Positions 1-60,767 of a stretch of 64,000 bases of DNA are shown piece after piece. Both the position numbers and the translations under genes were made by a program. Numbering within the stretch: the first letter of the stretch is position 1; each line of letters opens with the position of its first letter. The notes beneath the pieces are model-generated. The model saw only the letters and a program-made list of their open reading frames with translations, was not told the origin of the DNA and ran no database searches. Origin of the DNA: Escarpia spicata (taxonomy: Eukaryota; Annelida; Polychaeta; Sabellida; Siboglinidae); NCBI GenBank assembly GCA_963995525.1, contig OZ023205.1, positions 46,578,704 to 46,642,703 of the forward strand. Direction: 5' to 3'.

Positions 1-430
1 ACAGTACATGCATCACGCTTGTAGATCTCAACTGTAAACATACGCAGTACACACATCACACTTGTAGATCTCAACTGTAAACACACACAGTACATGCATC
101 ACGCTTGTAGATCTCAACTGTAAACATATGCAGTACACACATCACATTTGTAGATCTCAACTGTAAACACACGCATTACATGCATCACACTTGCAGATCT
201 CAACTGTAAACACACACAGTACACACATCACACTTGTAGATCTAAACTGAAAACAGATGCAGTACACACATTACACTAGTAGATCTCAACTGTAAACACA
301 CACAGTACATGCATCACGCCTGTAGATCTCAACTGTAAACACACACAGTACACACATCACACTATTATATCTCAACTGTAAACACATGCAGTACATGCAT
401 CACATTTGCAGATCTCAACTGTAAACACAC
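1..430. repeat. 43-bp tandem repeat, about 10 units
   Basis: The core is tgtagatctcaactgtaaac followed by CA-rich spacer. Units alternate between a gtacatgcatcacgc type and a gtacacacatcacac type, suggesting an 86-bp higher-order dimer. It continues beyond the left edge and lies in the plexin intron after exon 699-792. Confidence 0.85.
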
Positions 431-698
431 GCATCTTGTAGATGTAACCTGTAGACACATGGCAATACATGTGTATGATACATGTTGCCTGGTAATTTTC
501 TGATGAAGCTTGCTTATAGCAAACAAAACCTCACACGATGAAACAGTAAACTGACTACAAAATAAGTAAAAATAATACTGATCTGAACTATCCAGTCTGA
601 TTAACCTATTCACTCATAAACCCAATCAATACTATGTGGAGTATTGCTGCAACAGACGTGCACATCAACATACATGTCACCTCAATGTGCACTCTTAC

Positions 699-18700: not shown

Positions 18701-21700
18701 TGGTTTCTGAGATACGGCAGCTAACAGCGGACGGCGGACGCAGAGTGATGGGACTAGTCCCTTGGACCTTCGGCCAAAGGACTAAAAAGCTGTTCAAGCA
18801 CACAATTCCACAACTTTCTTTCGGCTTGTGCTCATAAATACAGAGCAAAATACAACACAAATAACAATGACTGCAGTCTTTATCACACATCTACTACCTG
18901 CAAGTTGATGACAATGACATCGACTGCAGATGACACCCCCGCAGGGATGAGTAGTTCCTTCGTCTCAGACGTTGGGAGACCACCCGCTCCCACCAGGGAG
19001 CTCACCCATGGGCACGAGGAAGAATTCTGAAAGTAAAAGAAAAAAATTCGCTAAATGTATCCAGAATGTTTGCATAAATTAATTGACGGATCCATACATG
19101 ACCTGTTGCCTAGCAAGCCATAAAAAAGGCTGCCAAACTCGTGGAGCATTTGCATATTCCATCCTATATATTGTTGAAATTCTCGCCCCGAACATTTTTC
19201 TTTATAACAAAAACAGGTTCTTTTACTTCCCCTCGCATAGACACCAGATAGAAGGGAATTCCCCAAGTTTCGACACGGCAACCGAACCAGTACCGAACCA
19301 CCGTCCTGTGGCACCAGAATTCGAACCCCGATCCCTCCGAACTCTAACCACTCGACCACTGCACCCCACATGACACTCACCGATATATCCTGGTTGTTAG
19401 TGCACTCAGACGCATTGTTGACACAGCTGCCATCTAGTGGACACCACACACAACCAAACTTTGTTTCCGTACAACGAGCACAGCTGAAAATAGTTTCAAA
19501 AATTATATCAATTTATATATTATGTGACATGGTTGGAAATGACTACTATCAATGATGTAATACAATACTTAACAATAACTTTATTGTCATTTATATAACT
19601 GTGTGTGTGCATGAATGCATGCATGTAAACATGTGTATGTGTGCATGCGCAGAAGTATTTGGGAATTTAATAATCACAAACCTTAACTACCTTTGGTCAA
19701 CTAATGAAAACTCATTGTACAAAGACTTAATGTTCCATGTCCGTAGGTTCAACCAACCTGTCCATGAAGGAGCACTGGTAGACAAAGACTGGCCTCGAGG
19801 CAACCTTTGTGTCATTCATCACAACACTGAACTCCAGCTTCACAAAACCTACAACATCAAACACATCTTCTATTGTTTGATGCCCCAAACATTTGAGGGT
19901 GGTACATACACAAGGCGCAGTGATGCTTTCGCCAACACAAGGGGTGTACAATTTACATAGCATTTTTGTCATACATAGTAGTACTCTGATACTAAAATGT
20001 AGAATTAGCCAAACAAATCAATTTTATGATCTGAACATTAAAATATACAAATTTCTTACAAATTACTTAATGTAAAATGTTTAAAACGTATGAAACAATA
20101 ATCTATGAAGACAACCCCACTATTCTATGCATCATTTATTTAGTTTCTTTGCTGTTTACAAATTTGCTAATTACTCTTGTAATTTTTAGTAATTATGCTC
20201 CTGGTGTAATAGGTGTTTCATAATTATTGCACTGCGATAAAGATGGCATACAATAAACATTGTCAGATGGTTACTTGGATATCTCCGACTTCACATAAAT
20301 GTTGATTGAAACTTAGTTGTGAGGTGACTGTATTACCAAGGTGACCTTAGTTGTGAGGTGACTGTATTTCCGAGGTGACCGTAAAACAAGGTTCAGCTGT
20401 ATTGCTTTTCAGTGCAAGAATGTTGAGATAGATAACCAGATGGTGAGGGGTGAAGGGGCGGTACCTGTGTCTTTGGGCACTGATGGGGTGGATATGAAGG
20501 GTCGACAGGTGACCGTGTCAGAGGTCACACCCTCTGTCGTACTACTCAGCTTCAGCTGGGTCGACTGAAGTTCACATCCGAGTCCCGACTGATCCACAGT
20601 GAGTTGTACATTGCGCAGGTTCACAACAAACTATAACAAAGTTTACAATAAACTGTCAACAAGCAAACACATAAGTTGTCATATAGACAGGGAACCTGTT
20701 CATATCATCAACATGTAATCTGAAATGATTACAATTAGCAGATACCAAATTTCACAGGGTTCTGTCAATAGTCTCAAAGCCATTTTCAAAGTCAAAAAGC
20801 ATAGTATCATGAATGTGTAAAATTCATCATCAGAATGGAGGAATGCCAAGGATTTAGGGTGAAAATGAAATTTCAGACAAAATTATGTCAAGTTTTTTGC
20901 ACAGGATAGCTATAGTTTCAGGTGATTCTGAAGTGATGGGGAAGGTAAATCCAGATTTTCTGCCGAGCTACAGCGAAAGCATGCTGTGAGATAGATGATC
21001 TCAGTGGCCTGGGTTACCAGTTGTGAACTTTTGACCATACAAGGGAGAATCACGACACACAAACCAACCTACCTTTGTATCGCGGAATCTTGATTGGTCA
21101 ACCATGTATGGGGTCAAGGCACTGATGGCTGGACAGCCACTGCCTAGAAAGGAGACCCAGTTGTGGGCGATGTCCGAGCCTGCGCACTCGGTGGGCAGCG
21201 TGCACCTACAGTCAGTGAGACAGTGGTCAGAAGATACTCATAGAGGTAACAAGGTAACTAGTGCTGACAGAAAGCTGGTGCCTGAGTGTATGAGGAGCAT
21301 AAGAGGAGTGAGACAGCCAGTTTGTGTAACTCAGAGACAGAGACTCGAAACAGACAGACAGACAGACAAACAGACAAAAAGTGCTGGAATGAAAGTTTCA
21401 AGCAGGAGATGAATCACGGATACCTGTTCTGTAGCTTATAGCAGCCGGGGGTGCTGATGCGACATGACGGTTATGACCATTGACTCACCTGTTCTGTAGC
21501 ATGTACCAACCATAGTGGGGGTCTGAGGTGAGATGACCATTGACTCACCTGTTCTGTAGCATGCAGCAGTCACCGTGGGGGGGTCTGAGGTGAGATGACC
21601 ATTGACTCACCTGTTCTATAGCATGCACCAGCCACAGCGGGGTTTGAGGTGAGATGACCATAGACTCACTTGTTCTACAGCATGCACCAGCCACAGCGGG

Positions 21701-24700
21701 GTTTGAGGTGAGATGACCATTGACTCACCTGTTCTACAGCATGCACCAGCCACAGCGGGGTTTGAGGTGAGATGACCATAGACTCACTTGTTCTCTAGCA
21801 TGCACCAGCCACAGCGGGGTCTGAGGTGAGATGACCATTGACTCACCTGTTCTACAGCATGCACCAGCCACAGCGGGGTTTGAGGTGAGATGACCATAGA
21901 CTCACTTGTTCTCTAGCATGCACCAGCCACAGCGGGGTTTGAGGTGAGATGATCATAGACTCACTTGTTCTCTAGCATGCACCTGCCACAGCGGGGTTTG
22001 AGGGGAGATGATCATAGACTCACTTGTTCTCTAGCATGCACCAGCCACAGCGGGGTTTGAGGGGAGATGATCATAGACTCACTTGTTCTCTAGCATGCAC
22101 CAACCACAGCGGGGTTTGAGGGGAGATGATCATAGACTCACTTGTTCTCTAGCATGCACCAGCCACAGCGGGGTTTGAGGTGAGATGACCATAGACTCAC
22201 TTGTTCTCTAGCATGCACCAGCCACAGCGGGGTTTGAGGTGAGATGACCATAGACTCACTTGTTCTCTAGCATGCACCAGCCACAGTGGGGTTTGAGGTG
22301 AGATGACCATAGACTCACTTGTTCTCTAGCATGCACCAGCCACAGCGGGGTTTGAGGTGAGATGATCATAGACTCACTTGTTCTCTAGCATGCACCAGCC
22401 ACAGCGGGGTTTGAGGTGAGATGATCATAGACTCACTTGTTCTCTAGCATGCACCAGCCACAGCGGGGTTTGAGGGGAGATGATCATAGACTCACTTGTT
22501 CTCTAGCATGCACCAGCCACAGCGGGGTTTGAGGTGAGATGACCATAGACTCACTTGTTCTCTAGCATGCACCAGCCACAGCGGGGTTTGAGGTGAGATG
22601 ACCATAGACTCACTTGTTCTCTAGCATGCACCAGCCACAGCGGGGTCTGAGGTGAGATGACCATTGACTCACCTGTTCTATAGCATGCACCAGCCACAGC
22701 GGGGTTTGAGGTGAGATGACCATTGACTCACCTGTTCTATAGCATGCACCTGCCACAGCGTGGTTTGATGTGAGATGACCATTGACTCACCTGTTCTATA
22801 GCATGCACCTGCCACAGCGGGGTTTGAGGTGAGATGATCATAGACTCACTTGTTCTCTAGCATGCACCAGCCGCAGCGGGGTTTGAGGTGAGATGACCAG
22901 AGACTCACTTGTTCTCTAGCATGCACCTGCCACAGCGTGGTTTGATGTGAGATGACCATAGACTCATTTGTTCTCTAGCATGCACCAGCCACAGCGGGGT
23001 TTGAGGTGAGATGACCAGAGACTCACTTGTTCTCTAGCATGCACCAACCACAGTGGGGTTTGAGGTGAGATGACCATAGACTCACTTGTTCTCTAGCATG
23101 CACCAGCCACAGCGGGGTTTGAGGTGAGATGACCATAGACTCACTTGTTCTCTAGCATGCACCAGCCACAGCGGGGTTTGAGGTGAGATGATCATAGACT
23201 CACTTGTTCTCTAGCATGCACCTGCCACAGCGGGGTTTGAGGGGAGATGATCATAGACTCACTTGTTCTCTAGCTTGCACCAACCACAGCGGGGTTTGAG
23301 GGGAGATGATCATAGACTCACTTGTTCTCTAGCATGCACCAGCCACAGCGGGGTTTGAGGTGAGATGACCATCCATAGACTCACTTGTTCTCTAGCATGC
23401 ACCAGCCACAGTGGGGTTTGAGGTGAGATGACCATAGACTCACTTGTTCTCTAGCATGCACCAGCCACAGCGGGGTTTGAGGGGAGATGATCATAGACTC
23501 ACTTGTTCTCTAGCATGCACCAACCACAGCGGGGTTTGAGGGGAGATGATCATAGACTCACTTGTTCTCTAGCATGCACCAGCCACAGCGGGGTTTGAGG
23601 TGAGATGACCATAGACTCACTTGTTCTCTAGCATGCACCAGCCACAGCGGGGTTTGAGGTGAGATGACCATAGACTCACTTGTTCTCTAGCATGCACCAG
23701 CCACAGTGGGGTTTGAGGTGAGATGACCATAGACTCACTTGTTCTCTAGCATGCACCAGCCACAGCGGGGTTTGAGGTGAGATGACCAGAGACTCACTTG
23801 TTCTCTAGCATGCACCAGCCACAGCGGGGTCTGAGGTGAGATGACCATAGACTCACTTGTTCTCTAGCATGCACCAGCCACAGCGGGGTTTGAGGGGAGA
23901 TGATCATAGACTCACTTGTTCTCTAGCATGCACCAGCCACAGCGGGGTTTGAGGTGAGATGACCATAGACTCACTTGTTCTCTAGCATGCACCAGCCACA
24001 GCGGGGTCTGAGGTGAGATGACCATTGACTCACCTGTTCTATAGCATGCACCTGCCACAGCGTGGTTTGATGTGAGATGACCATTGACTCACCTGTTCTA
24101 TAGCATGCACCTGCCACAGCGGGGTTTGAGGTGAGATGATCATAGACTCACTTGTTCTCTAGCATGCACCAGCCGCAGCGGGGTTTGAGGTGAGATGACC
24201 AGAGACTCACTTGTTCTCTAGCATGCACCTGCCACAGCGTGGTTTGATGTGAGATGACCATAGACTCATTTGTTCTCTAGCATGCACCAGCCACAGCGGG
24301 GTTTGAGGTGAGATGACCAGAGACTCACTTGTTCTCTAGCATGCACCAACCACAGTGGGGTTTGAGGTGAGATGACCATAGACTCACTTGTTCTCTAGCA
24401 TGCACCAGCCACAGCGGGGTTTGAGGTGAGATGACCATAGACTCACTTGTTCTCTAGCATGCACCAGCCACAGCGTGGTTTGATGTGAGATGACCATAGA
24501 CTCATTTGTTCTCTAGCATGCACCAGCCACAGCGGGGTTTGAGGTGAGATGACCATTGACTCACCTGTTTTATAGCAAGCACCAGCCACAGCGGGGTTTG
24601 AGGTGAGATGATCATAGACTCACTTGTTCTCTAGCATGCACCAGCCACAGCGGGGTTTGAGGTGAGATGATCATAGACTCACCTGTTCTCTAGCATGCAC

Positions 24701-27700
24701 CAGCCACAGCGGGGTTTGAGGTGAGATGACCATAGACTCACTTGTTCTCTAGCATGCACCAGCCACAGTGGGGTTTGAGGTGAGATGACCATTGACTCAC
24801 CTGTTCTATAGCATGCACCAGCCACAGCGGGGTTTGAGGTGAGATGACCATTGACTCACCTGTTTTATAGCATGCAACAGCCACAGCGGGGTTTCAGGTG
24901 AGATGACCATAGACTCACCTGTTCTCTAGCATGCACCAGCCACAGCGGGGTTTGAGGTGAGATGACCATAGACTCACTTGTTCTCTAGCATGCACCAGCC
25001 ACAGCGGGGTTTGAGGTAAGATGATCATAGACTCACTTGTTCTCTAGCATGCACCAGCCACAGCGGGGTTTGAGGTGAGATGATCATAGACTCACTTGTT
25101 CTCTAGCATGCACCAGCCACAGCGGGGTTTGAGGTGAGATGATCATAGACTCACTTGTTCTCTAGCTTGCACCAACCACAGCGGGGTTTGAGGGGAGATG
25201 ATCATAGACTCACTTGTTCTCTAGCATGCACCAGCCACAGCGGGGTTTGAGGTGAGATGACCATAGACTCACTTGTTCTCTAGCATGCACCAGCCACAGC
25301 GGGGTTTGAGGTGAGATGATCATAGACTCACTTGTTCTCTAGCATGCACCTGCCACAGCGGGGTTTGAGGGGAGATGATCATAGACTCACTTGTTCTCTA
25401 GCATGCACCAGCCACAGCGGGGTTTGAGGGGAGATGATCATAGACTCACTTGTTCTCTAGCATGCACCAACCACAGCGGGGTTTGAGGGGAGATGATCAT
25501 AGACTCACTTGTTCTCTAGCATGCACCAGCCACAGCGGGGTTTGAGGTGAGATGACCATAGACTCACTTGTTCTCTAGCATGCACCAGCCACAGTGGGGT
25601 TTGAGGTGAGATGACCATAGACTCACTTGTTCTCTAGCATGCACCAGCCACAGCGGGGTTTGAGGTGAGATGATCATAGACTCACTTGTTCTCTAGCATG
25701 CACCAGCCACAGCGGGGTTTGAGGTGAGATGATCATAGACTCACCTGTTCTCTAGCATGCACCAGCCACAGCGGGGTTTGAGGTGAGATGACCATAGACT
25801 CACTTGTTCTCTAGCATGCACCAGCCACAGTGGGGTTTGAGGTGAGATGACCATTGACTCACCTGTTCTATAGCATGCACCAGCCACAGCGGGGTTTGAG
25901 GTGAGATGACCATTGACTCACCTGTTTTATAGCATGCAACAGCCACAGCGGGGTTTCAGGTGAGATGACCATAGACTCACCTGTTCTCTAGCATGCACCA
26001 GCCACAGCGGGGTTTGAGGTGAGATGACCATAGACTCACTTGTTCTCTAGCATGCACCAGCCACAGCGGGGTTTGAGGTAAGATGATCATAGACTCACTT
26101 GTTCTCTAGCATGCACCAGCCACAGCGGGGTTTGAGGTGAGATGATCATAGACTCACTTGTTCTCTAGCATGCACCAGCCACAGCGGGGTTTGAGGTGAG
26201 ATGATCATAGACTCACTTGTTCTCTAGCTTGCACCAACCACAGCGGGGTTTGAGGGGAGATGATCATAGACTCACTTGTTCTCTAGCATGCACCAGCCAC
26301 AGCGGGGTTTGAGGTGAGATGACCATAGACTCACTTGTTCTCTAGCATGCACCAGCCACAGCGGGGTTTGAGGTGAGATGATCATAGACTCACTTGTTCT
26401 CTAGCATGCACCTGCCACAGCGGGGTTTGAGGGGAGATGATCATAGACTCACTTGTTCTCTAGCATGCACCAGCCACAGCGGGGTTTGAGGGGAGATGAT
26501 CATAGACTCACTTGTTCTCTAGCATGCACCAACCACAGCGGGGTTTGAGGGGAGATGATCATAGACTCACTTGTTCTCTAGCATGCACCAGCCACAGCGG
26601 GGTTTGAGGTGAGATGACCATAGACTCACTTGTTCTCTAGCATGCACCAGCCACAGTGGGGTTTGAGGTGAGATGACCATAGACTCACTTGTTCTCTAGC
26701 ATGCACCAGCCACAGCGGGGTTTGAGGTGAGATGACCATAGACTCACTTGTTCTCTAGCATGCACCAGCCACAGTGGGGGTCAGCTGCAGCATGGCACGC
26801 ACCACAACTCTTGTAGGGAGAACAGTTTGATAACTGCACCATGTGCACCTGGAACAAATAAAAAAATATAATATTGTATATAAAAGGATGGTCTCATGGG
26901 TTTACATGGTCCAATGTCACATTATGCATCTAGAGTTGGTTCAAACCAACGCCTCATATAATATAGAATACACTGGAGAAAACAATGAGGCATATAGAAT
27001 ATACTGGGGAAACACAACAATCTAAAATATAATAGGGAAAACAACGATATATCTAAAATAACATGGGAAAAACAATGATATATCAAGAATATAATGGGGG
27101 AAACAGTGATGTATCTAGAATATAATGGGAGAAACCAATGATATATCCAGAATATAATGGGGGTAACAGTGATATATCTAGAATATAATGGGAGAAACCA
27201 ATGATATATCCAGAATATAATGGGGGAAACCAATTATATATCTAGAATATAATGGGGAAAACAATGATATATCAAGAATGTAATGGGGAAAACAGTGATA
27301 TATCTAGAATATAATGGGAGAAACCAATGATATATCCAGAATATAATGGGGGAAACCAATTATGTATCTAGAATATAATGGGAAAACAATGATATATCTA
27401 GAATATAATGGGTAAAAACATTTATATTTCCTGTATTTCAGTCTTCACAATTTTTTTGAAAACTTACTATTTTTTATATAAATCAAGAAAAGCTCAATCA
27501 TTCAACCAAATATACCCATTGAAGGGTTCATAAACATTCTAATCTGCTGACTACATTAAATTGTAAAAATATTTTTCTTCCATGTATTATATACATAAAT
27601 AATAGTTTTACCATTATCAGCTTTCATGTACCCCATATTAATTTATGTGTGCATGTTGAACATACCTGTCGTTAGCTTTGTCAAGTTATCTACACTACTG

Positions 27701-30700
27701 ACCCATATACTTTGTACTGTGCACTTTACACGTCCTTATTTAGGTGTTGACATATACACTGTCATTATGTTGTGAAGAGGCATCAACTGAAGTCCTCCAT
27801 TCAATAAGCGGGGCACATTAAGCTGAGATAATCTCTAACAAGATCAGATTGTATGCATCTCCTACAAGTTCACCATACCAAATTTATACATTTAGTAGTC
27901 GTGTACATAATGGGTTATGGCACCGATACACACCACACAAATGTATCTACATGCTTAAAACATAATTACTTATATTTAGGGCAAGACTGAACACCGCTGA
28001 GTTCTATATTACTAGGTTGTGCCCTTACATTTCTGCCGAGGCAATGCCATTATGTCGCTTATGAATGTCATTAGAAATTGAACATGACACTCTAGAAATA
28101 TGAATAGACCACACACTGTCTGCAAGTCATGTTAAGCAAACCGAAGACACACATTTAATGTCAAGGTCACAATCAAGGTCAATCTCACAAAGGTCAAATA
28201 TTATAATACACATTCAGTGTCGTCACAATCAGATCAACATCAAAATTATATAGTAAAAAATGCACAAAAATACACACTTTATGCAAAACAAAATATTCAA
28301 GAACATCAAAATTAAATCCAAGGTCAAGACAGATAGTCAAGGTCAAGTTCCGTCTGATGCACTGTTACCTTTGAAGATGTTAATACGTATGCATGTGTGT
28401 CGCTGGAGTTCAGTAAGAGGTCATGCTGGATGGCCATTCCAAGTTCAATGTCCACTATACCATAGACAGGGTCGGGTGTCTGTGGTCCAGTGCTTGGCCA
28501 AAGCACCATCTGGGAGACAACAGGTAGGACAGCTCTATCAATGGCAGCAAGACAATCAGTGATCCAGAATTTGATTTTAAAATAGACAGAAATGAAACAA
28601 GTTGTCTTTTTATTCGGTTTAGTAATAAATGAAAAACATATGGTAATTAAAATGGTTTTACAACAAATGACAAACATAATTAAAATGTCTTTATTAGTAT
28701 TTGTTTGTTGCTTATTTAAATATGTATTCAGTTGACAAAATCACAACTCCGAAATCACAACACTGGAATAAGTATATAATATGAAATGTGTACAGAAATC
28801 AAATAAAGATTTATAAATGAAAAAAACCGGCCTTTTGGGATGTTGTACACCAAAAGAGAAAAAAACACCCTGAAAAGCTATGAATTAAACCCTAACCAAA
28901 TATTTTAATTCAAAAATGTTCACATAAAAACCTGGCCAGGGACAACATTGCCAACATTTTGAGGGCAAACATTTTTTTATTTCACATGACTCTTTGTAAA
29001 ATGAACAAGAAAAAAATTGATTTGTCCACCACCAAAATTGTGTATTTGAGAAGTGTAATAAGTGACCTGAATATTATTAGGGTCATTACGGAATAATTTA
29101 CTCCCCCATGACAAGGCACCAGGGGAACTGAAGAAGGAATTTGAGTTTTAGTGTCTACTTAGCATTATTAGACATGTGTTTCCAATGTCCTCCCCTTATG
29201 CAAGTGCTAGGATGGTGGCAATTAAGATGTGCTGAAATGATTGAAACACTGACTCACTGAGTGGACTTGGTGACTGCTGATTACCAAGAAGAGGCATAAT
29301 CTTAAGCCATGGCTGGTAGCCTTGTACTGTAGGCCTGTAGCTATAGAGCACAGACCACAATAGTATCAGTGCTAACATTTTTGTTTTATTATAAGGAGAC
29401 TGGGCCATCAAAAATGCTGAAACGTCCTTTCAGTCTCAGCCACTGCAATAATTTCATTGATTATGCTGGACAAGTTTAGTTTAAATTGTATCTCTCTAGT
29501 GTCTTTTAATCATGCTTACCCTAAAAACCGGCAGTCTTCACCCAATAATAATATGCCCAATATTATTGTGTTACCACCAAATACTTACACACCACTAAAT
29601 GCATACAGACTGCTTCATGTTTGACTCTTTTAATCATGCTTACCCTCAAAATTGGCAGTTTTCACCCAATAGTAATATGCCCAATATTATTACTTTTTGG
29701 AATGCTACAACCAAGCATCTACACACCGTGAAATGCTATCATGGAATTCACACTGCATGACCTAAATTCTCTTGGGCAAATTTGGCTAAAAGGAGTCATT
29801 TTGTTTAACTAAATAAAATATTTGTTAACAAATTTTTTAAAATATGAATTGTGATCTATCCCCAAGACTGAAATTAAAGATAAAGTTGCGCCACCTACCG
29901 GATTTTCCGGTGGAACTAACGTATACATGTAAAGCGAGTGAATTTCTTGTATATTTTGATCGATAAGACAGTACATTTATTTTTTTAATCACGTGACCAG
30001 TGTATATGTGTACAGTAGGTAAAGTAGATATATGATGTGAAGTTTGGTGACTATAGGTGACCGTTTTCATGTTTTTTTGGAGGTGCGGGTCTAAACTGCA
30101 AAACTTAAACTTTCAGTTTTAAAGTACAACTTGTTTCTGATTTTCTTCCGACCGTGCATGTATTTCGACTCCGGCCGGCTTGACTGTGATATGTCACATG
30201 ACAGATTTGTGTTAAATGGTTTAAGGGATATTTGTGTTATCTTTTAACAATAATTTGCCTATGCATTTAAGGATTTTCTTTAAATTAAAGGAAAACAAAA
30301 GGCAACGTTTTGGTGTTGAGCATCCAAGAGAGTTAATACAAACTAACAATTTCCAACTACAATCAAATTTTTAATGTCAGCGGTTTACCAGGAAACATTT
30401 TTTAACACACAACTACCGAATTTCTATGGACTACGCCATTGTTAGAAGAAAATGACATCACACTGTCGTAACTCACTTCGTAAATTTTCTGCGTACTGTT
30501 TGTTCCCAACTCCGTTAGGTGGCGCTATGGTAAGTGTACCAATTAAACTATGTGCGCATGCGCTGTGACTGTGTAAATAAGATGGCTTTCCAATTCTTCG
30601 GAAGACAACGAAAACCAAATCGATTTCGAAGCAGCTGGTTACCAGGTTTGAACTACAAAAACAAGGGCCTGTGTTGGAAGATAGGGCAGAGGCGCGTGCC

Positions 30701-33700: not shown

Positions 33701-36700
33701 CTGATAAGGTAGTAGTCATGCTGGCTGGTACTTTTGAGTAGCCATCCTGAAAAAAACGAGTTGGATGCCTATGAAATGCAGTAATTTCGAAAACTTATTA
33801 TAATGTTAGTTATGCATAGGAGCTGATTTAGTGTATTTGGGATTCAAGTCGGTAACTGGAATTCACCTTACACTACTTGGATCGTGGTCCCTACTCATCA
33901 TCTACTCATTGCAAATCTAAAGGTTACTTGTTGCTTTGGACATGCCCCAGGTATAAAATGAATACATATCAAGTTTGGTACTTACTCCAGCAACTGTGCG
34001 TCACCGTTGCATGTTGCACAACACCACCACAGATGGTTTGATACATTCTGTATCCAATGAAGGAGGTCCTCGCATCCCTCGCCACGGGCCTTCACAGTAA
34101 ACTTGCGGCTGATGCCTTTCCCCATGTGCCACATCATGTTGGTGATCGAGCTGAAATGCAAATTACAATTATTTCTATTTTTTTATCCAAATTCAAGATA
34201 TTTTCACAACAGCTGTTACCTGTTTTTGCTGTTAGTGTGCAAAAAAAACAAGTTAGTGAAGATGTGTGCACATGGTATATTATTAAAGATATATAATATA
34301 TGATTATTGAGTGATGCCAGTATTTTATAATACAAACATGGTGTATCTGGTGAGCTCATTGATAACTATATTTGGATCACATAATTACTCCCAGAGATAT
34401 CCTTCCAAATGCAGAATTTAAATGTTTTTTTTAGAAAATGGCCATCAAATGTGGCATAATGGATAAAAATTACTTGATACTGGCACCCTTATTCCATGGA
34501 TAAGAGTGGTTTAAATGTATGTAATTGTTGTAAAATGATATCTATTCACAGTAAACATAATAAGCTATCATAATCTGGCATAAAAAAAACATTTTAGTAT
34601 TTTTTTCTATAAAAAAAACACTTTCACCTGGGTTGTATCCCCTTAACTAAAATTGAGTAACATTATGTAATTTTACTAAATACAAATGAAGCCATTTTAA
34701 ACGTTTTACAATAGAGTAAATAGTGATATTCTTCATCACATAAACAGTAGTCACACATAATTATATAGAAAGTCCAATTATATAACATCATGACATAAAT
34801 AATAGGCCAAACATTTCGATATATTACAATGTCTAATGCAATATTATTGAATGCAGAACATATTTTTGTTCATTTAACACAAAATACAGTAAGTTTTGCA
34901 ATGTTATTATAAACGACAATCATTCCAGCCCATGTTAATCCGTTACTGTAATATCGCTCACGCAACTTAATTGCCGTTAACTTTTGCTATTCGGCTATCT
35001 TCTAAAGACTAAACTCTTTGTGGTGCAATATAGCACATTCTGGTACTGTTCTGGCTTGCCTCCAGCATATCTTGCATCTCAAATGTCAACAGATTTTAAT
35101 TGGATACCAAGTAACTCGGTACTAACCTTCTTGCGATTGATTTCTCGGCGGCGGCGCGTTTGACCGAAAATATGCGTCGCTTCGACGGCTGAGGTCCGTT
35201 ACTAAATATCGTAGGCACTGCACCTGGCTTCAAACATCGACGTCGACGATGTTTTGTCGGATCTTGTGTCATTAACTGACGATATAGATTTCCTTCGAAG
35301 CACGTTTCTTCAAAATGATCTGAACATAGTGCGTTGTATTTCGAAGGCTTCCAACCAGCTCGTCCACAGTTGTGAATCCACTATTTCACTTCTGGTTGTT
35401 TCAAAGGGAAACAAAAAAGACAGCTCATTATCCTTCGCTGTACTATTGTTACAACCGTATGTAGAGCAGTGTGGCATATTGCAAGTCACGTTTTCACTGT
35501 AAGCTCAACTTATACTAATACAACGAACCGCATCCGATGAACATGAACCAACTACGCGAACTACACAAGACAGTGTGTCGTACACGGCAAAAATAATGCT
35601 GCTCATTTATTGGTTGCTTTCGGCCAAATGAACGCGTCATCAGTAAGATGGCAGTCTACATGTTATCACAGATTTCGTTAGAATGTTCCACTTTAAGACT
35701 ACATTCCGAGTAAACCACTGAACTGAAAATTTTGATTGTAGATGCAAATGGTTAGATTGTGCGAACTCTTTTAGGTGCTAAACACCACAACTTTGCCTTT
35801 TGTTTTCCTTTAAATACAAACTTACAATCGTTGTGTCTTGTGCAGACGCCATGCTAGCCTTAGGAAGTTTGGTTGTGCGCGGCCAAATTTGTGATAAGAA
35901 TTCTCATTGGCTAGAACCCTGCGGCTATTGACCAACAACAGTTCAGTTAACATAAATTGTCATAAAAGCGTCCTTCACAGCTGAACGATCAGGTGAATGC
36001 AAGAAATTGAAGAACAATTTGAAATCAGTGACATTTAATCAAATAAAGATATAAAACCAGCATTTCGCATCAGTATTTCTTTCATGTTTCGCAAATTTGG
36101 CGATCATGTGCATTTTTCTTTTTGCCAAACAGTACAAAAATTAGTGCATGGTGAATGGCGAAACCGTAGCGCAAACGCTGACTGCCAAACATCTGACATT
36201 TCATGCAATCCAACCAAGCTGGCTGAATACAGACTTTACTTCTTGGCACTTATGTCACTAACATCAGATAGATTGAGTATTTGTAGGCACTACATTTCCA
36301 GAAGTATAATTCTGGACTGACCCCTGTTATCATCAATCACTCACCTTCACTAGTTGACCCTGGTCAGTTCCCAGCAGGGCCACTATAAACTGACCAACAG
36401 GCTTCATTGCAAGACTGGTCACCACGTGTCCAGTCAGGGGGTGTACACTAAATGGACGGATGGGGTGTTGCCCCTCGATTGGGTAATTACCATTATTTTG
36501 TCCACAGCCAACATAATTCTGAAAAACAATGTACCAAGACATAATAATAAAAGTAAAAATTAAATTCCAAACAAACAAACTAGTCATTTCACAAGAGTGC
36601 AAATGTGAATATATAATGATTAAGAAAATGACAGCATTTTGTGTTTTCAACAGTAAGTCTCATTTATAAATTTATATTCACAGTAGCCAAGGTATATTTA

Positions 36701-38836
36701 TGAAACTGAAATAGATGTTTCACAAGTTTCATTCACTGGATGTATTTAATATTTTAAAGTTGATTTAAAATAGCATTTGTTAAAATCAGTATGCATATTC
36801 AAGACTTTTAAAAACTTAGAGAAATTAGACCTAGATACATTTGTGACATTATTCATTTCAAATGTAATTCTTCCACATAAAACACAGATCGCAATCGTAG
36901 TAAAGGCCATTAGTAATGTTACAGCTTGCATATTAACACATCTGCTGTGATATTGATACCATCAGCATTTTGTGTTTAATGTAATTTGTTGGTGGGACAA
37001 GTAGATTTCTGTTCAGACAAGAAAACATTCATGAACTTGAACTTGTCCTACAGGACAAGTGGTTTCTGGGAATTAATGTCGAGCCCTGACATCTGAAATA
37101 AGAAAGGTGAAATAAAATGATGTCAAGACCAACTGTTTCAAGAGAAAAAAGTGGCATTACATTAAACAAATTATATCCTAGATTTTCTATCCAATAATAT
37201 ATGTTATCATGGAGTTTATAAAACATGCAGAAAATGGAAAGTAATAGTTATACTAAAAATATTCACATTTCAACAGCTCTACAATGAACTAGCATGACCA
37301 CGATATTTCAAACATTTAAAGGTCCTCAATTTGGGTTTTTCTTTGCTTGTCTTGTTTTAAAACTATTTCATGTAAAATTGAATCCATCTACTGGTAGTAT
37401 TGGCTAAAACATGCTAGTATAGTAGCTTGTTTGCACAAATATGTTATAATATAATTTTGGTGAAATCATCAAACAAAGTATGGAACTATGTTTACCTTGA
37501 TCTGCAAAAAAATTGGCGATTGCGGGAAAAGTACTCCAGCTCTATATTTATTATAACTTATGGCTATTTACACTTCAGCAAGTTTCCCGATTTAACCACC
37601 AAAGTAAACTTTGCAACAGCAGCACATCATGAACATATATAAATATGTTTTTCAAAAAGGAAAAGTAATATGGTACATACTGCTTTTGTACAATCCTGAG
37701 GCGACACGAGATGAGCAGGTCCAGTCGTCCCCTCGCCACGGAAACATTCTCTAATATTCCGCATAAACACAACTTCCACACGCCCCATCGAGTAAGCACA
37801 GATAGCAGCATCCTTAGTCGTCTTTGCCGTGTTTCCCTCCGCTGTAGAGAACGACACAAACAACGCATCCCCAGCATCGTTGAATTGGGGAAATCGCTGA
37901 TTTGGGCGGGCAAGATGAGCGGCCGTCGCAAGGGTGTATGTGCGATTGTCCACCGAGCATTCAAGCGGAACTTCGATGTACGATTGGAAGTGATCATCCC
38001 CGTGACATACGCGCACCAGCCATGTCGAGTACATATGCAGATCATTGACAAGTTTTGGTCGTACGACGACAAAATAGGTGAATGTGGCATGCGAGAATCC
38101 AGCCTTGAAGTAGACCTTGAATTTGTTGTTAAGATACCGTGGTAGGAGGCCAATGAATGAGGACCCTGTTAAGCTGGTGATGTACTTTAATGTGTTCACG
38201 TCACGGCTTGAAACCATTGGGACTTTGTTATTGAATCTGGCAAGACCTCTAGTACTGTGCGTGGCTCCGATGTACAGCCTCGCAGGGCGTGAACCCCCCG
38301 CATCAGTGTCACCACCATTGATCACCATGACAACCGGTTCATTTTTGTCATTAGAAACGACGTGTGCATACACTGTCTCCACGTGTGTCAGATTGTACAG
38401 GCTGAATTTCTCGCAGTAGCCATAGTAGAGGGTACTGCAAGCAATCAGGAGACCTTGCCAAGGCACGATCACGAGTGCCTGGTTTATGCTGTCCTCAGCG
38501 ACGCGACTGTAGTTGACGCTGCATGCCTGCTTTGGATTCGGCTGACAGTTGAGATTGTCTGGATGTGGTCCAGTCTCAACGTGAGCCAACAGCTCCAGTG
38601 ATGCCGACAGCTTGTAAAGGACATTGACGCCGCCGACATAGACATCACCTGTACTGCCGTCAATGGTGACATGTCGGAATATTGTGTCTGACACCGATGA
38701 GGGGCTATCAAAGTGGTGCACAACCTGTGTCTGGCCTTGACCAGTCAGCATTGCCACAGCCAACCATAATGACCACAGCGACAGTGACATAGTCTCTCAT
38801 TTAGTTCTGTAGCCGGTTCCTAAACCTGTCAAGCAT
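699..38836 (-). CDS. Plexin (semaphorin receptor), N-terminal ectodomain; 5' part of the gene, 11 exons, 3' end outside the window
   Basis: Plexins are single-pass cell-surface receptors for semaphorins that steer axons and migrating cells. I joined 11 exons from splice sites and reading phase: 38836-37681 (start codon 38790), 36518-36345, 28509-28369, 26848-26748, 21205-21073, 20630-20465, 19848-19758, 19483-19381, 19026-18898, 1539-1420 and 792-699. Every junction keeps frame, giving 787 codons plus 1 nt. Order in the protein: signal peptide (about residues 1-20), sema domain (about 25-475), PSI-1 (about 480-520, CGWC motif), IPT-like region, PSI-2 (about 635-673, CARC and CVWC motifs), start of a second IPT. 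The remaining IPT domains, the membrane segment and the cytoplasmic GAP domain must lie left of base 699. Exon content and order match the plexin family; I cannot separate plexin A from plexin B. No in-frame stop is seen, so the gene looks functional. Confidence 0.9.
793..1419. other. Plexin intron, nothing recognised
   Basis: AT-rich sequence between two plexin exons; T-rich runs but no coding or repeat signal that I can name. Confidence 0.4.
1420..1539 (-). CDS. Plexin exon: IPT-2, middle strands
   Basis: 120 bp, phase 0 to 0. It encodes EQYAKNLKCRFALGGG and later THVTCHAVE; the Y/L-x-C-x-F and V-x-C strands are the IPT hallmark. Acceptor ctctag at 1540, donor gtgagt at 1419. It is 17.4 kb from the previous exon because of the retroelement nest. 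Confidence 0.85.
1765..2870. repeat. Two diverged direct copies of a ~565-bp repeat
   Basis: The first copy starts near 1771 and the second near 2336; both contain atgggccaagtggccctgaa, gtcggaaaaattgtaacatt and gaacatggtagggatcaaaa. Differences are scattered, so the duplication is not recent. The palindromic tggactaat/ccaagtgg motifs resemble those ending the repeats at 7100 and 18780. No coding function is visible. Confidence 0.75.
3224..3402 (+). pseudogene. Non-LTR retrotransposon reverse transcriptase fragment (first catalytic block)
   Basis: The frame encodes CAFIDYKKAFDLVDQSSLW and then GINGIVLKVVYNIYKKAKSC, RT palm motif with the first catalytic Asp (FIDYKKAFD). It stops abruptly at 3402 where a minus-strand Ty3/gypsy fragment begins. 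Matching sequence resumes near 5889. Clade (RTE or CR1-like) is not settled. Confidence 0.75.
3387..4250 (-). pseudogene. Ty3/gypsy integrase core and C-terminal domain (fragment)
   Basis: A 287-codon open frame. The DDE catalytic triad is visible: D in HIDIVGP, D in SDRGSQF and E in HNGKIERMHR. The GPF/Y-type C-terminal module follows (PKYTGPFRVLRRW). The zinc-binding part is in another frame upstream (4266-4640: CSYWWQG, CESC). A frame break at about 4255 separates them. Confidence 0.82.
4657..5193 (-). pseudogene. Ty3/gypsy RNase H fragment
   Basis: It encodes YLEGQPIIVRTDHKPLVG and LKGERNGVTDALSRV, the C-terminal half of a Ty3/gypsy RNase H. The N-terminal half is in a different frame at 5254-5637, so at least one frameshift lies between. 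Confidence 0.8.
5254..5637 (-). pseudogene. Ty3/gypsy RT thumb / RNase H start (fragment)
   Basis: It encodes PERVEAIRRFPVPTTPKELE, RFLGICAFFHRFVPHASG and WCDASNIAVGAVLVQLQ, the RT-RNase H connection. It ends at a stop at 5254. Upstream of 5640 the RT core is absent. Confidence 0.8.
5660..5890 (-). other. Possible LTR end and primer-binding site of the minus-strand gypsy fragment
   Basis: On the minus strand the sequence near 5765 reads ...CTTAACA then TGGTGACCCTGACGTG; TGG plus GC-rich bases right after ..ACA is how a retroelement primer-binding site looks. If so, gag and the RT core have been deleted between about 5750 and 5640. This is inference from one site only. Confidence 0.3.
5884..6240 (+). 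pseudogene. Non-LTR RT fragment, second piece (LSPLLFAI / YADD region)
   Basis: It begins with a near copy of the 3367-3402 sequence (YNMYKNAKSC), then decayed frames encoding SAFFSCDV, LLFAIYLN-type and, at about 6130, a YADDT-like block in broken frames. It is an older sibling of the copies at 14161 and 17760. Confidence 0.6.
6500..7140. repeat. Interspersed repeat with ~155-bp units ending in a hairpin
   Basis: Units carry agaatgattcaatcaaat, then a gtggca..ccctaag spacer, then gcaaaattagagaaaaagtt. The last unit runs into agatacggcagctaac and a hairpin-like end with ccttcggccaaaggact (about 7090-7115). The same end occurs at 18770-18785. Confidence 0.7.
7383..8004 (+). repeat. 5' LTR of the Ty3/gypsy element (622 bp)
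   Basis: Ends TGTAAC...GTTTACA. It contains AATAAA at 7956-7961, the likely polyadenylation signal. Equivalent LTRs are at 13130-13751 and 16729-17350. Confidence 0.95.
8007..8024 (+). promoter_or_regulatory. Primer-binding site, probably tRNA-Leu
   Basis: TGGTACCAGAAGTGGGGT lies 2 nt after the 5' LTR. The complement has the CCA end and an acceptor stem like animal tRNA-Leu (UAA type). The tRNA match is from general knowledge, not a search. Confidence 0.65.
8060..9019 (+). CDS. gag: Gag-like polyprotein of the Ty3/gypsy element
   Basis: 319 residues, starting at the first ATG of the frame (8060). Gag forms the virus-like particle and binds the element RNA. A coiled-coil-like N-terminus (KLERLEEMVETLKRNQ) is followed by a retrotransposon-gag region (about 50-200) and a CCHC zinc knuckle CEYCGRSGHTYTNC near residue 273. 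It ends at TAA 9017-9019; pol follows in the -1 frame with an overlap of only 13 nt (9007-9019). The frame is intact. Confidence 0.9.
   Translation: MASADEKLERLEEMVETLKRNQQSINVTVTAPTTRKLKTFEGRSCDLHDWMEDARNCLSSISSVERLHFLIAHLDGPAREEVRYAPEEEKDSVDKLFALLVSTFGETRSNAQLKKELYDRGQGNRESVRDFSRALLEISEGLSDKSQSKNETLIEVFCENLVDPQIKREMKKSVRNQPTISFSALRSEAIRLEEDGLSSMCKNACIRGIHEPHHTSVDPSILERIATQLELLATTQTQIVSLLRAQQSSVGVERGDRTSRPKPRNSGSVSCEYCGRSGHTYTNCWKRAGDMRRTTDQTENRAYGGQPNSSATPRNNQEN
9007..13074 (+). CDS. pol: Pol polyprotein: protease, reverse transcriptase, RNase H, integrase
   Basis: Open from 9007 to 13074; first ATG 9070, residues numbered from it. Protease site reads D27-M-G-S instead of DTG/DSG. RT: active site FLDD 485-488. 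RNase H: catalytic Asp 652 in ETDASHQGLGALL. Integrase: zinc ligands H919, H924, C954, C957; catalytic D986, D1045, E1081 (35-residue D-E spacing); GPY/F-type module near the end (WDPGVYVV); no chromodomain seen. Expression probably needs a -1 frameshift from gag because the pol frame is closed by a stop at 9004-9006. No internal stop. Length is normal for the family. Confidence 0.93.
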   Translation, partial: SGKLSSPTVERHAGGCSNIDSMLVDAIIGKTPVISCCISGEDTNMVLDMGSEVTILQEWWFNEHLMTSVNGLKDASAWLRLEAANALEFPYIGYFTADINVLGTVVKNKGILVQKDPPGFVPSRPTSGILGMNVLGDMPEIRELLHTIETHDTNPKQDIDGRVVKIAGDTRVKIPAWSSCNVTVSGPHCTGNGMVEPFDVPLKGGLLLQTCLVGSINGHFEVTILNPTSEDVWLRSHSPVGRIYTVDVVDRNQEHFVDFEELDDGLRVSLEPRQVTATTRQVRSEQCKYISDASPLDPEYNWMEEVHIGEIPPIDKDRLMELLHNHQQVFAQDENDVGLTDTVKHRIYTSDDSPVKAAYRRIPPPQFEEVKAHIKDLVHKGIIKPSQSEFASPIVICRKKNGKIRMCVDYRRLNTKTRKDAFPLPRVDEIFDHLSGAKYFSTVDLKSAYNQVEIDEVDQHKTAFTTPMGLYEYMKMPYGLCNSPATFQRLMHIVFREEMNEKVLIFLDDIIIYSSTIEEHFERLNLVFQRLASHGLKIEPTKCYLFQESVSYLGQIISNEGISGDPEKVNAVREWPVPENARELKVFLGTAGYHRRYIHHFSQLASPLYELVDQDPNKGKKRKPGRKWNSAKPVLFVWRQEHQEAFDSLKHALTTAPVLGFADFTKPFILETDASHQGLGALLLQEQEGKTRVIAYASRSLRGPEKKRTAYSSMKLELLAVKWAVTEKFRDYLLSVPFVVYTDNNPLSYIQTSAKLTAAEHHWQAELARFNFSIRYRSGRLNASADGLSRKPLQTETKEFTVIEEDEIADILQVTVLPCDLRHKLLKAAVCTTTAQVRYTSKYVESPILPSLSSDAIQEAQRYDPVLGRVWQYIDRGRESTLGERRKEQPAVAKLLQQWDRIQVCSGKLCRTLIDPMSGEKVSQLLLPRTMREEVLQELHDRMGHQGIDRVEKLVRARFYWPNMRSDILNWILKCDRCNLAKMPHFKVRTPMNSIVTRGPLEVIAIDFTLLEPASNGIENVLVMTDVYSKYTIAVSTRNQTALTVAKTLVREWFLRYGVPCRIHSDQGRCFDAKIVNELYKIYGIEKSRTTPYHPMGNGQCERYNRTMHGLLRTLTPAQKTKWPEYLLELTYAYNVTPHAATGFSPFYLMFGRVPRLPIDIKLHSDDPLQLQTVHGANLDWVDYHQARLTSAYAKATEQLKLDIAKRKASYDKHVGENALRVGERVHLRNRVRGRNKIADAWDPGVYVVTEQKDDTYVVVPARGHKKRIINRQDLRVCVPETAKGSRLSRLGQGSEETDHPPYEVTISGQPNNSHLDLNPDVEESTTPNTPLRRSTRSNAGYHSNPHREPRSVLS
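9010..9016 (+). promoter_or_regulatory. Candidate -1 frameshift site between gag and pol
   Basis: The heptamer GGAAAAC is read G GAA AAC in the gag frame, one codon before the gag stop. The overlap of open gag and pol frames is just 9007-9019, so a -1 shift must occur here. The heptamer is close to, but not exactly, the X-XXY-YYZ consensus. Confidence 0.5.
13130..13751 (+). repeat. 3' LTR of the Ty3/gypsy element
   Basis: Same length (622 bp) and apparently same sequence as the 5' LTR; preceded by the purine-rich cttgggggaca and followed by target duplication CATG. Confidence 0.95.
14161..14440 (+). pseudogene. Non-LTR RT fragment (LSPLLFAIYLNDF ... LLYADDT)
   Basis: One frame gives LSPLLFAIYLNDFEHC then a stop; another (from 14242) gives the catalytic LLYADDTRMIQSNTDFL. 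This is the RT block holding the second and third catalytic Asp, broken by at least one stop or frameshift. It is flanked by the 155-bp repeats. Confidence 0.75.
14690..15085 (+). repeat. ~155-bp tandem units seeded by RT coding sequence
   Basis: Three units start near 14702, 14855 and 15010 with agaatgattcaatcaaat, the same bases that encode RMIQSNTDF right after YADDT in the RT fragment at 14372. Each unit then has gtgtacagtg and gcaaaattagagaaaaagtt. The duplicate set is at 18290-18700. Confidence 0.75.
15091..16673 (+). pseudogene. Duplicated pol 3' fragment (integrase), no promoter or start of its own
   Basis: Second copy of pol from just before the integrase domain to its stop. The frame is intact (zinc ligands and DDE residues as in the parent), but gag, protease, RT and a 5' LTR are missing; an ATG-initiated product would need an outside promoter. 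It arose by the tandem duplication, not by transposition. Confidence 0.9.
16729..17350 (+). repeat. Third LTR copy, product of the tandem duplication
   Basis: Counterpart of 13130-13751 at an offset of 3599, with one C-to-T difference at about 17271. Confidence 0.93.
17760..18039 (+). pseudogene. Non-LTR RT fragment, duplicated copy
   Basis: Identical by eye to 14161-14440, carried in copy B of the 3594-bp duplication. Confidence 0.75.
18290..18790 (+). repeat. ~155-bp units and hairpin end, second copy
   Basis: Counterpart of 14690-15085, but continuing past the duplication border into agatacggcagctaac and the hairpin cttggaccttcggccaaagg (about 18760-18785), the same ending as at 7115. 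It marks the 3' end of the interspersed element. Confidence 0.7.
18898..19026 (-). CDS. Plexin exon: start of IPT-2
   Basis: 129 bp, phase 0 to 0. It encodes SSSCPWVSSLVGAGGLPTSE and then LLIPAGVSSAVDVIVINLQ; CP near the start and an (I/L)xxPAGV strand are typical after PSI-2. Acceptor ctttcag, donor gtagta. Confidence 0.85.
19180..19375 (-). mobile_element. tRNA-derived SINE
   Basis: On the minus strand, box A TGGTCGAGTGG (19348-19358) and box B GGTTCGAATTC (19317-19327) have the order and near-tRNA spacing of an RNA polymerase III promoter. The tRNA-like head is followed by an unrelated body ending near an A/T-rich run. It cannot be a working tRNA gene because the acceptor stem does not pair and no anticodon arm is evident. 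It starts about 6 nt after the plexin PSI-2 exon donor. Confidence 0.7.
19381..19483 (-). CDS. Plexin exon: PSI-2 domain
   Basis: 103 bp, phase 2 to 0. It encodes SCARCTETKFGCVWCPLDG and SCVNNASECTN, a complete PSI cysteine pattern. Acceptor ttttcag; donor TCG|GTGAGT at 19380. A tRNA-derived SINE begins only about 6 nt into the following intron. Confidence 0.9.
19758..19848 (-). CDS. Plexin exon: strand leading into PSI-2
   Basis: 91 bp, phase 1 to 2. It encodes FVKLEFSVVMNDTKVASRPV and FVYQCSFMD; the FxVYxC strand directly precedes PSI-2 in plexins. Acceptor tgttgtag, donor GACAG|GTTGGT. Confidence 0.88.
20465..20630 (-). CDS. Plexin exon: IPT-like region between PSI-1 and PSI-2
   Basis: 166 bp, phase 0 to 1. 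It encodes FVVNLRNVQLTVDQSGLGCEL and later VTCRPFISTPSVPKDT. Acceptor ttatag at 20631; donor CAG|GTAC at 20464. Confidence 0.85.
21073..21205 (-). CDS. Plexin exon: end of PSI-1 and start of the IPT-like region
   Basis: 133 bp. One base completes the split codon, then CTLPTECAGSDIAHNW closes the PSI-1 disulfide knot, followed by GSGCPAISALTPYMVDQ. Acceptor actgtag at 21206, donor gtaggt at 21072. It joins the 26748 exon in frame (..ENK|CTLPTEC) across 5.5 kb of minisatellite. Confidence 0.9.
21420..26747 (-). repeat. 59-bp minisatellite made of a plexin exon end plus its 5' splice site, about 90 units
   Basis: On the minus strand each unit has TGTGGCTGGTGCATGCTAG, AGAACAA, then GTGAGTCTATGG and CATCTCACCTCAAACCCCG. 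The first 28 nt equal the last bases of the PSI-1 exon (encoding CGWCMLEN) and the rest equal the start of the intron. The array abuts the authentic exon at 26748, so it grew from that junction. Units vary at few sites: AACAA|GTGAGT or AACAG|GTGAGT, CATAGACTC or CATTGACTC. No acceptor-like site recurs in the unit. 59 is not a multiple of 3. Confidence 0.95.
26748..26848 (-). CDS. Plexin exon: PSI-1 domain, first half
   Basis: 101 bp, phase 0 in and phase 2 out. It encodes VHMVQLSNCSPYKSCGAC and then HCGWCMLEN, the classic PSI pattern C-x5-C-x2-C-x8-C-x2-C. The donor is ACAA|GTGAGT at 26747. The last 28 nt of this exon and the first 31 nt of the intron are the founder of the 59-bp minisatellite that fills the following intron. 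Confidence 0.92.
26935..27420. repeat. ~31-33-bp AT-rich minisatellite
   Basis: About 15 units of the type gatatatctagaatataat plus gggg(a)aaacaat in the plexin intron. It produces a repetitive 103-codon ORF on the minus strand that is not a gene. Confidence 0.85.
27430..28368. other. Plexin intron, nothing recognised
   Basis: AT-rich, unique-looking sequence without a supported ORF, RNA or repeat. Confidence 0.4.
28369..28509 (-). CDS. Plexin exon: last strands of the sema domain
   Basis: 47 codons (MVLWPSTGPQ...HAYVLTSSK). The end resembles the plexin motif HLYVMTSxK that leads into PSI-1. Acceptor tctcccag, donor gtaaca, phase 0 at both ends. An alternative acceptor 25 nt upstream (gatag) would break the frame, so I chose the inner one. 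Confidence 0.82.
28700..30430. other. Plexin intron, nothing recognised apart from one short internal repeat
   Basis: A ~50-bp motif (aatcatgcttaccct..., cacccaataataatatgccc) occurs twice near 29510 and 29630. No coding signal. Confidence 0.4.
30550..30890 (+). pseudogene. Cys-rich coding relic (WCRCGKCC), possibly P2X7-C-terminal-like
   Basis: An open frame encodes PVLEDRAEARASGHEQEG and then CRDDINWCRCGKCCSDLLVQ before a GGTAATT that could be a donor. WCxCGxC is reminiscent of the zinc-binding domain seen at the P2X7 C-terminus and in many invertebrate transposon-linked proteins. Possible further exons (31433-31512, 31644 on) contain stops. Identity is tentative. Confidence 0.3.
31918..32300 (+). 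pseudogene. Retroelement polyprotein C-terminal relic
   Basis: The frame from about 32010 encodes NIKKDHVFKTNKYVALIHDV, then GIKSELTCIEIGCRGYVSD and a tail to a TAA near 32297. The pattern (HIIELT, then KY..L..D, then EIGxRG) resembles the C-terminus of reverse-transcriptase proteins common in cnidarian and molluscan genomes. Upstream frames are interrupted. No start. Confidence 0.45.
32971..33245 (-). pseudogene. Last exon of the THAP gene
   Basis: Acceptor actgtag at 33246 requires phase 1 (GMKARLMLSALAWNY...), whereas the exon upstream ends in phase 2, so another exon is lost or unseen. It stops at 32971. Confidence 0.5.
33986..34150 (-). pseudogene. Second exon of the THAP gene (transposase-like region)
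   Basis: 55 codons, phase 2 in and 2 out, acceptor tttcag, donor gtaagt. WIQNVSNHLWWCCATCNGD matches the style of a C-terminal region found in many invertebrate THAP and transposon-derived proteins. Confidence 0.6.
35127..35477 (-). pseudogene. THAP zinc-finger exon, broken
   Basis: It carries the whole C2CH finger but in two frames: CSTYGCNNSTAKDNELSF in the ATG frame, and CFPLKQPEVK, stop, WIHNCGRAGWKPS and the rest in the other. Sequencing error in the T-run could explain the shift but not the TAG as well. Confidence 0.65.
35853..35960 (-). promoter_or_regulatory. Candidate promoter with CCAAT box for the THAP gene
   Basis: On the minus strand a GCCAATGAGA box lies near 35905-35915, upstream of an ATG at 35852 with 9 codons (MASAQDTTI) and a perfect gtaagt donor at 35825. 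That mini-exon does not join the THAP exon in phase, so it may be a leader or belong to another transcript. Confidence 0.3.
36345..36518 (-). CDS. Plexin exon: sema domain, C-terminal part
   Basis: 58 codons starting NYVGCGQNNG and ending TDQGQLVK, the blade that precedes the last sema strand in plexins (pattern L-G-T-D-x-G-Q-L-x-K). Acceptor ttttcag at 36519, donor gtgagt at 36344, both phase 0. Confidence 0.9.
37681..38836 (-). CDS. Plexin exon with start codon: signal peptide and most of the sema domain
   Basis: The start codon is at 38790. The first residues are a hydrophobic signal peptide (SLWSLWLAVAMLTG). The next 350 residues show sema-domain features: FRHVTIDGSTGDVYVGGVN, CSTLYYGYC, and several Cys pairs. 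A polypyrimidine tract and acceptor (ttgcag) end at 38837 and a GTATGT donor begins at 37680. Coding length is 1110 bp, phase 0. The ORF runs on past the donor only into a short intronic tail, so the donor decides the end. Confidence 0.92.
38801..38836 (-). promoter_or_regulatory. Upstream ORF in the plexin 5' leader
   Basis: An 11-codon ORF (MLDRFRNRLQN, then TAA) begins with the ATG that is the first three bases of the exon after the acceptor and ends 10 nt before the plexin ATG. It is in another frame. Such a uORF would tend to lower or condition plexin translation; that role is inferred. Confidence 0.45.

Positions 38837-46123: not shown

Positions 46124-60767
<14,644 letters not shown>

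Follow-up and report, generated by a model that had tools for sequence, protein, structure and literature searches.

What becomes of an intron that consists almost wholly of copies of its own 5′ splice site? The question is raised by a plexin gene on the minus strand of a stretch of 64,000 nucleotides (C1:46578704-46642703, hereafter the window), taken from an assembly of 1.06 Gb and 1,097 contigs. Intron 4 of this gene, which splits the first PSI domain (PSI-1), holds a 59-bp minisatellite of 91 units, each of which joins the end of exon 4 (~35 nt) to the start of intron 4 (~24 nt). By these structural criteria the array is a minisatellite of the type called mirage in amphioxus, and an extreme one in size. 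Positions are those of the window unless preceded by C1.

A Boundary Minisatellite in a Plexin Intron

The features concerned are the following:

26748..26848, minus strand: plexin exon 4, 101 nt, first part of PSI-1, ending ...CGWCMLEN plus 2 nt (frame; PSI matches)
21206..26747, minus strand: intron 4, 5,542 nt (frame)
21418..26782, minus strand: 59-bp boundary array, 91 units, unit 1 being the authentic exon end and donor (Tandem Repeats Finder, TRF; donor anchor)
21073..21205, minus strand: plexin exon 5, second part of PSI-1 (KCTLPTEC...) (frame; PSI match)

In detail, TRF places the array on the minus strand at 21473-26779, with a period of 59, 89.8 copies and 95% matches. Anchoring on the donors gave 91 donor-like units, whose first intron bases extend from 26747, the authentic donor of exon 4, to 21423, with a spacing of exactly 59 in 86 of the 90 intervals. 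The array covers 5,331 of the 5,542 nt of the intron (~96%). These counts agree with an earlier sequence-only reading of this DNA, which had described about 90 units of 59 bp at 21420..26848, beginning at the real exon (26748) and filling almost the whole 5.5-kb intron. That reading had also seen an exon end and a 5′ splice site in the unit, which stands, but its division into 28 and 31 nt is better put at about 35 and 24. The resemblance of unit and exon, on which it had staked its claim, is above chance: the consensus, built from units 2-88, is identical to the authentic boundary at 32 of 35 exon positions and at 24 of 24 intron positions.

The donors are largely intact, and the authentic one is indeed followed by about 90 near-copies, as had been proposed. 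GT is retained in 88 and GTGAGT in 87 of the 91 units, which comprise 68 CAA/GTGAGT, 19 CAG/GTGAGT, 3 CAA/ATGAGT and 1 CAG/GTATCC (the slash marks the splice junction). Within units 2-88 one of the six donor positions varies, versus 27 of 53 elsewhere, the latter figure being inflated by the 4-bp insertion of one unit. The centre of the array is homogeneous. On the contrary, the far edge has diverged, as units 89, 90 and 91 match the consensus at 49, 43 and 26 of 59 positions, and the donor of unit 91 reads GTATCC; this edge may represent the old start of the intron. Block duplications occur within the array, where the longest stretch repeated exactly measures 1,095 bp (lag, 18 units), and 30 unit types are found among the 91 in a patchy order.

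When the 59-bp array was placed at random 100,000 times, its edge covered an exon boundary in 1,571 cases; for the second array of this gene copy (described below) the figure was 1,465 of 100,000. The control is rough, as both arrays were picked after the fact. Chance is excluded because such placements are rare and because the unit itself holds exon sequence. The plus strand of the array (21418-26782) carries 67 donor-like sites, 63 of them GAGGTGAGA. The window gave no match to Rfam.

The Plexin Gene

The remaining exons recognized in the window are the following:

37681..38790, minus strand: exon 1, signal peptide and most of Sema (open frame, Sema match)
36345..36518, minus strand: exon 2, Sema (open frame)
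28369..28509, minus strand: exon 3, end of Sema (open frame, structure match)
20465..20630, minus strand: exon 6 (frame)
19381..19482, minus strand: PSI-2-like exon piece (CARCTETKFGCVWC...), assigned by eye

Exons 1-6 join as a single open frame that encodes 608 residues. Its Sema part is matched by Plexin A of the Drosophila entry 6fkm (E 6e-45), and five Sema relatives lie at 59-75% identity. PSI-1 matches the 6fkm protein with an E value of 2.2e-23, where CGWCSLENKCS stands for the CGWCMLENKCT found here, and scores 42.5 bits with Pfam PSI. The domains follow the plexin order, Sema and then the PSI domains, PSI-2 being placed by eye. The assignment of the array to a PSI-1 exon of a plexin, made earlier from the letters alone, is therefore borne out. 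A search for related loci with protein P0001 in viral and genome contigs confirmed none.

A further array of 31/63 bp lies in intron 3 just before exon 4 (26965-27412). Its minus strand repeats TTATATTCTAG, with an acceptor-like look and without exon sequence.

Donor Choice, Reading Frame, and Predicted Splicing

The plexin frame is kept by donor 1 only. The other 90 donors all lead to an identical product, which ends with residue 509 (...DPHCGWCMLENK): in this frame the donor is read as AAG TGA. Since all of them give the same stop, donor choice cannot diversify the protein beyond one truncated form. The copy-number-dependent isoforms proposed in the sequence-only reading are thus narrowed: as judged from the frame, unit number could alter only the amount of truncated protein. 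The other effects suggested there as possible were U1 titration and slow or flexible splicing.

The real donor, CAA/GTGAGT, has a donor-matrix score of 5.2 and a predicted U1 pairing of -5.4, and the 19 CAG/GTGAGT decoys have 8.5 and -11.9, respectively. That these decoys outscore the real donor, and that all 90 yield one product, would suit a regulated non-productive splicing in which the decoys divert a fixed fraction of the output into a soluble protein of 509 residues (Sema and half of PSI-1), or into decay, and array length tunes that fraction. Such regulation is unlikely, because the unit number varies widely among near-identical gene copies (see below), unlike what a tuned device would show.

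With the same matrix, the score of the real donor is reached or exceeded by 87 sites in the 5,331 nt of the array, versus 9 in the other 58,640 nt of the minus strand. This density, together with the lack of any A(A/T)TAAA signal in intron 4 (0.97 per kb on the minus strand overall), brings up the idea of a landing platform, on which ~87 good U1 sites in 5.3 kb would hold U1 and suppress early polyadenylation or delay release. However, a repeat of this sequence lacks the signal in any case, and 68 of the 91 sites are CAA/GTGAGT with weak predicted pairing. The CAG sites are predicted to be buried, with a mean unpaired value of 0.23 (n=19) against 0.53 for CAA donors (n=68) and 0.41 for random GT sites (n=150). 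It also appears implausible that one gene should titrate the U1 of the cell, and a platform of this kind is improbable.

With the pattern used here, no acceptor-like site is seen in 85 of the 91 units, for which the earlier statement that no acceptor recurs holds; it fails for units 48, 51, 71, 85, 89 and 90, which read CACCTCAG/A, a weak site. In these six, CAG instead of CAA precedes the exon-like part, and five of them would yield an in-frame microexon (33 nt in four cases, 36 nt in one). The candidates, as predicted from the frame, are the following:

23975..24007, minus strand: exon-like part of unit 48 behind CAG, possible in-frame microexon of 33 nt
23798-23830, 22614-22646 and 21788-21820, minus strand: further possible microexons of 33 nt
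21549-21584, minus strand: possible microexon of 36 nt

Splicing of such units into the message would lengthen PSI-1, and an origin of microexons from mirages has been proposed (PMC3087553). The acceptor context is nevertheless weak and the would-be microexon of unit 90 (34 nt) is out of frame, so that the array is very improbable as a source of small exons.

Two further candidates were tried and rejected. AG/GTGAGT in 19 units resembles the zero-length exon of recursive splicing, but the preceding GTGCATGCTA.AGAACAG is without a pyrimidine tract, as judged by eye. AGGTGAG can pair with CTCACCT in a donor hairpin, but none of five folds was clearly stabler than 200 shuffles (z 1.63, -0.21, -0.26, 1.49, -1.29).

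A Mirror-Image Acceptor Array in the Same Gene

Besides the donor array at PSI-1, this gene carries an acceptor array at PSI-3. The latter, at the edge of the window, had not been linked to the donor array in the sequence-only reading.

2..433, minus strand: edge of a 43-bp acceptor array (intron end and exon start), which extends past the left end of the window as far as the PSI-3 exon at C1:46577403 (TRF)
20619..20662, minus strand: 22-bp repeat in two copies, spanning the acceptor of exon 6 and found in each of the four gene copies examined (TRF)

The 43-bp array runs on to C1:46577382 with 40.8 copies (TRF). Its unit joins an intron end, ...GTGTTTACAG, to an exon start, TTGAGATCTACAAGTGTGATGC, and the array ends at an exon reading VEIYKCDAMEDTCGQCLILEPHYHCGWCVEHC...CPYPQITT. 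The best match of this exon is to Plexin-A4, in its third PSI region (764-825, E 6.2e-9), and IPT-like exons, recognized by eye, come after it. Across the cluster of gene copies described below, 43-bp acceptor arrays have 34-56 copies. In the copy of the window (copy a), 3 of the 13 boundaries examined lie in tandem arrays.

Four Plexin Copies in One Cluster

A 201-bp query across the boundary gave 157 matches in the genome and, among the matches listed, all fall at four places in one cluster. Exon 5 with its flanks was found at least four times, at the same four places. The cluster comparison leaves out C1:46642704-46700000. The donor-like units number 91 in copy a, 40 in copy c, 17 in copy x1 and 15 in copy x2. 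The array of copy c (C1:46751825-46749444) has one interval of 116 and 39.8 copies by TRF; that of x1 starts at C1:46737068 with 16.7 copies and that of x2 at C1:46723666 with 14.7 copies, also by TRF. Exons 5 and 6 and the intron between them make up 741 bases, all of which are shared by a and x1 and likewise by x1 and x2; in the comparison of a with c, 739 of them are identical. The arrays thus evolve much more rapidly than the DNA around them.

Copies a and c share 97.5% identity over 12.9 kb upstream, and their first exons have nine differences (five silent codons, four not). Tandem arrays of 25, 16 and 10 bp recur in the same order in C1:46577000-46640000 (a) and C1:46709000-46780000 (c), which places the two in a duplicated block or in two haplotypes; they may be paralogues or uncollapsed haplotypes. 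This resemblance, the identity of x1 and x2 over the 741 bases compared and the 1,095-bp exact repeat within the array would fit an assembly artefact, in which a real array was given a false length, or spurious extra gene copies arose, through misjoined repeats or uncollapsed haplotypes. On the contrary, the 30 unit types in patchy order, the differing lengths and unit sets of the four arrays and the absence of any N from the window argue against such an error, and it is considered very doubtful.

Copies x1 and x2 contain chimeric PSI exons, with the start of PSI-3 and the end of PSI-1:

C1:46737165-46737069: chimeric PSI exon of x1
C1:46723763-46723667: chimeric PSI exon of x2

At the chimeric join the parent exons share a stretch around TGTGGCTGGTGC. 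The chimeric exon keeps the frame and reaches 36.4 bits with Pfam PSI (cut-off 23.1). Each has 33.8 acceptor units upstream, and donor units downstream amount to 16.7 in x1 and 14.7 in x2. We infer that the chimeras arose by unequal exchange between two PSI exons, with the arrays carried along.

A more elaborate role is conceivable. The arrays could form a fail-safe, length-tunable splice switch, in which any decoy gives one defined secreted Sema fragment because each decoy donor holds its own in-frame stop, and unit number sets the ratio of soluble Sema decoy receptor to full-length plexin. If recombination brought donor and acceptor mirages to one exon, the boundary arrays would in addition act as exon-shuffling vehicles that lengthen the plexin stalk. 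An in-frame TAG near the end of the PSI-3 exon of copy c (~C1:46709390) and the absence of any recognized IPT exon between PSI-2 and PSI-3 speak against a working lengthened plexin, and this combined role is judged even less likely than regulated non-productive splicing by itself.

Comparison with Known Boundary Repeats

The mirage of Adh3 in amphioxus was reportedly described in the original paper by Canestro et al. in 2002. Mirages are minisatellites of amphioxus genes, namely the globins BflGb6 and BflGb9 and Adh3 (PMC3087553), to which PGBD5 and TnC have been added (PMC3902484). Their unit lengths are reported as 10-160 bp, and two haplotypes of BflGb6 have 3 and 6 units (PMC3087553). Their splicing is reported as regular (PMC3087553; PMC3902484), which again disfavours a regulated use of the plexin decoys.

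The plexin arrays share with them tandem units that span a boundary, lie in the intron and are in register with the real boundary. Either boundary may be affected, as by the 59-bp donor array and the 43-bp acceptor array here, and both unit lengths fall within the reported range. Length instability, seen here between gene copies, and a homogenised centre with a distinct edge (units 89-91) are also common to both. On the other hand, the 91 units of the plexin intron contrast with the 3 and 6 of BflGb6, and donor and acceptor arrays here occur in one gene and flank one exon in two chimeras. As regards a cephalochordate host, a search for the GFP family (PF01353) matched nothing, and the 14 control genomes likewise had no match.

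The minisatellite of human IFI6 (6-16), attributed to Turri et al. in 1995, is said to have a short in-frame unit of 12 bases. It supplies several donors at an exon end, and the downstream repeat donors are used and give other isoforms (PMC4526556). The plexin repeat likewise supplies several donors at an exon end, but its 59-bp unit breaks the frame and carries a stop at all 90 downstream donors. In the Rogers model of intron gain, exemplified by potato RdRp, a tandem duplication extends over splice signals (PMC4974935). The duplication of a boundary segment with its splice signals is similar here, but it enlarged an intron that was already present. Tandem repeats at exon-intron boundaries are also known from humans (PMC2812944). 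Within the part of the literature covered, neither an array as large as this, nor an exon flanked by both arrays, nor a so-named mirage outside lancelets was found.

Other Features of the Window

Long frames resembling those of LTR retrotransposons were noted by eye at ~3400-5700 (minus strand) and at 8000-13100, 15000-16700 and 52600-57500 (plus strand). A THAP-domain-like pair of overlapping frames was seen, also by eye, at 35096-35504 (minus strand).

Probable Origin of the Array and Significance

The array is probably a boundary minisatellite that is largely neutral, changes quickly and is tolerated by the splicing machinery. At first, 59 bp spanning the junction of exon 4 and intron 4 would have been duplicated in tandem, and unequal exchange would then have amplified and homogenised the copies on the intron side. 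The intact exon would stay at the 5′ edge of the array, so that each added copy is intronic. Most likely the exon-proximal donor is used, and the whole array leaves as part of the intron. If a decoy were used now and then, the in-frame TGA within the donor would stop the transcript in the same way each time. The array would thus add at most some non-productive splicing and a recombination-prone stretch whose length drifts fast. Regulated use of the decoys, though conceivable, is unlikely.

Three points weigh against this explanation. With 19 CAG decoys scoring above the real donor, faithful use of the first donor is not self-evident. The intact donors of 87 of the 91 units could also mean selection, the variation being too sparse to decide. 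Finally, identity to the exon falls along the array (Spearman -0.22, p 0.035, units 2-91), but this gradient rests on the last three units (-0.15, p 0.18, units 2-88).

Boundary repeats of this kind are known but little studied, and the plexin array is a very large example. How the spliceosome selects a single donor from ~90 nearly identical competitors, and in this gene also a single acceptor from ~40, could be studied in it as a natural experiment. With 91, 40, 17 and 15 units, the four loci provide a dosage series that already exists in the genome. Boundary minisatellites are also linked to exon recombination by the chimeric PSI exons, which have an array on each side. Should the animal not be a cephalochordate, mirages would not be confined to that group.

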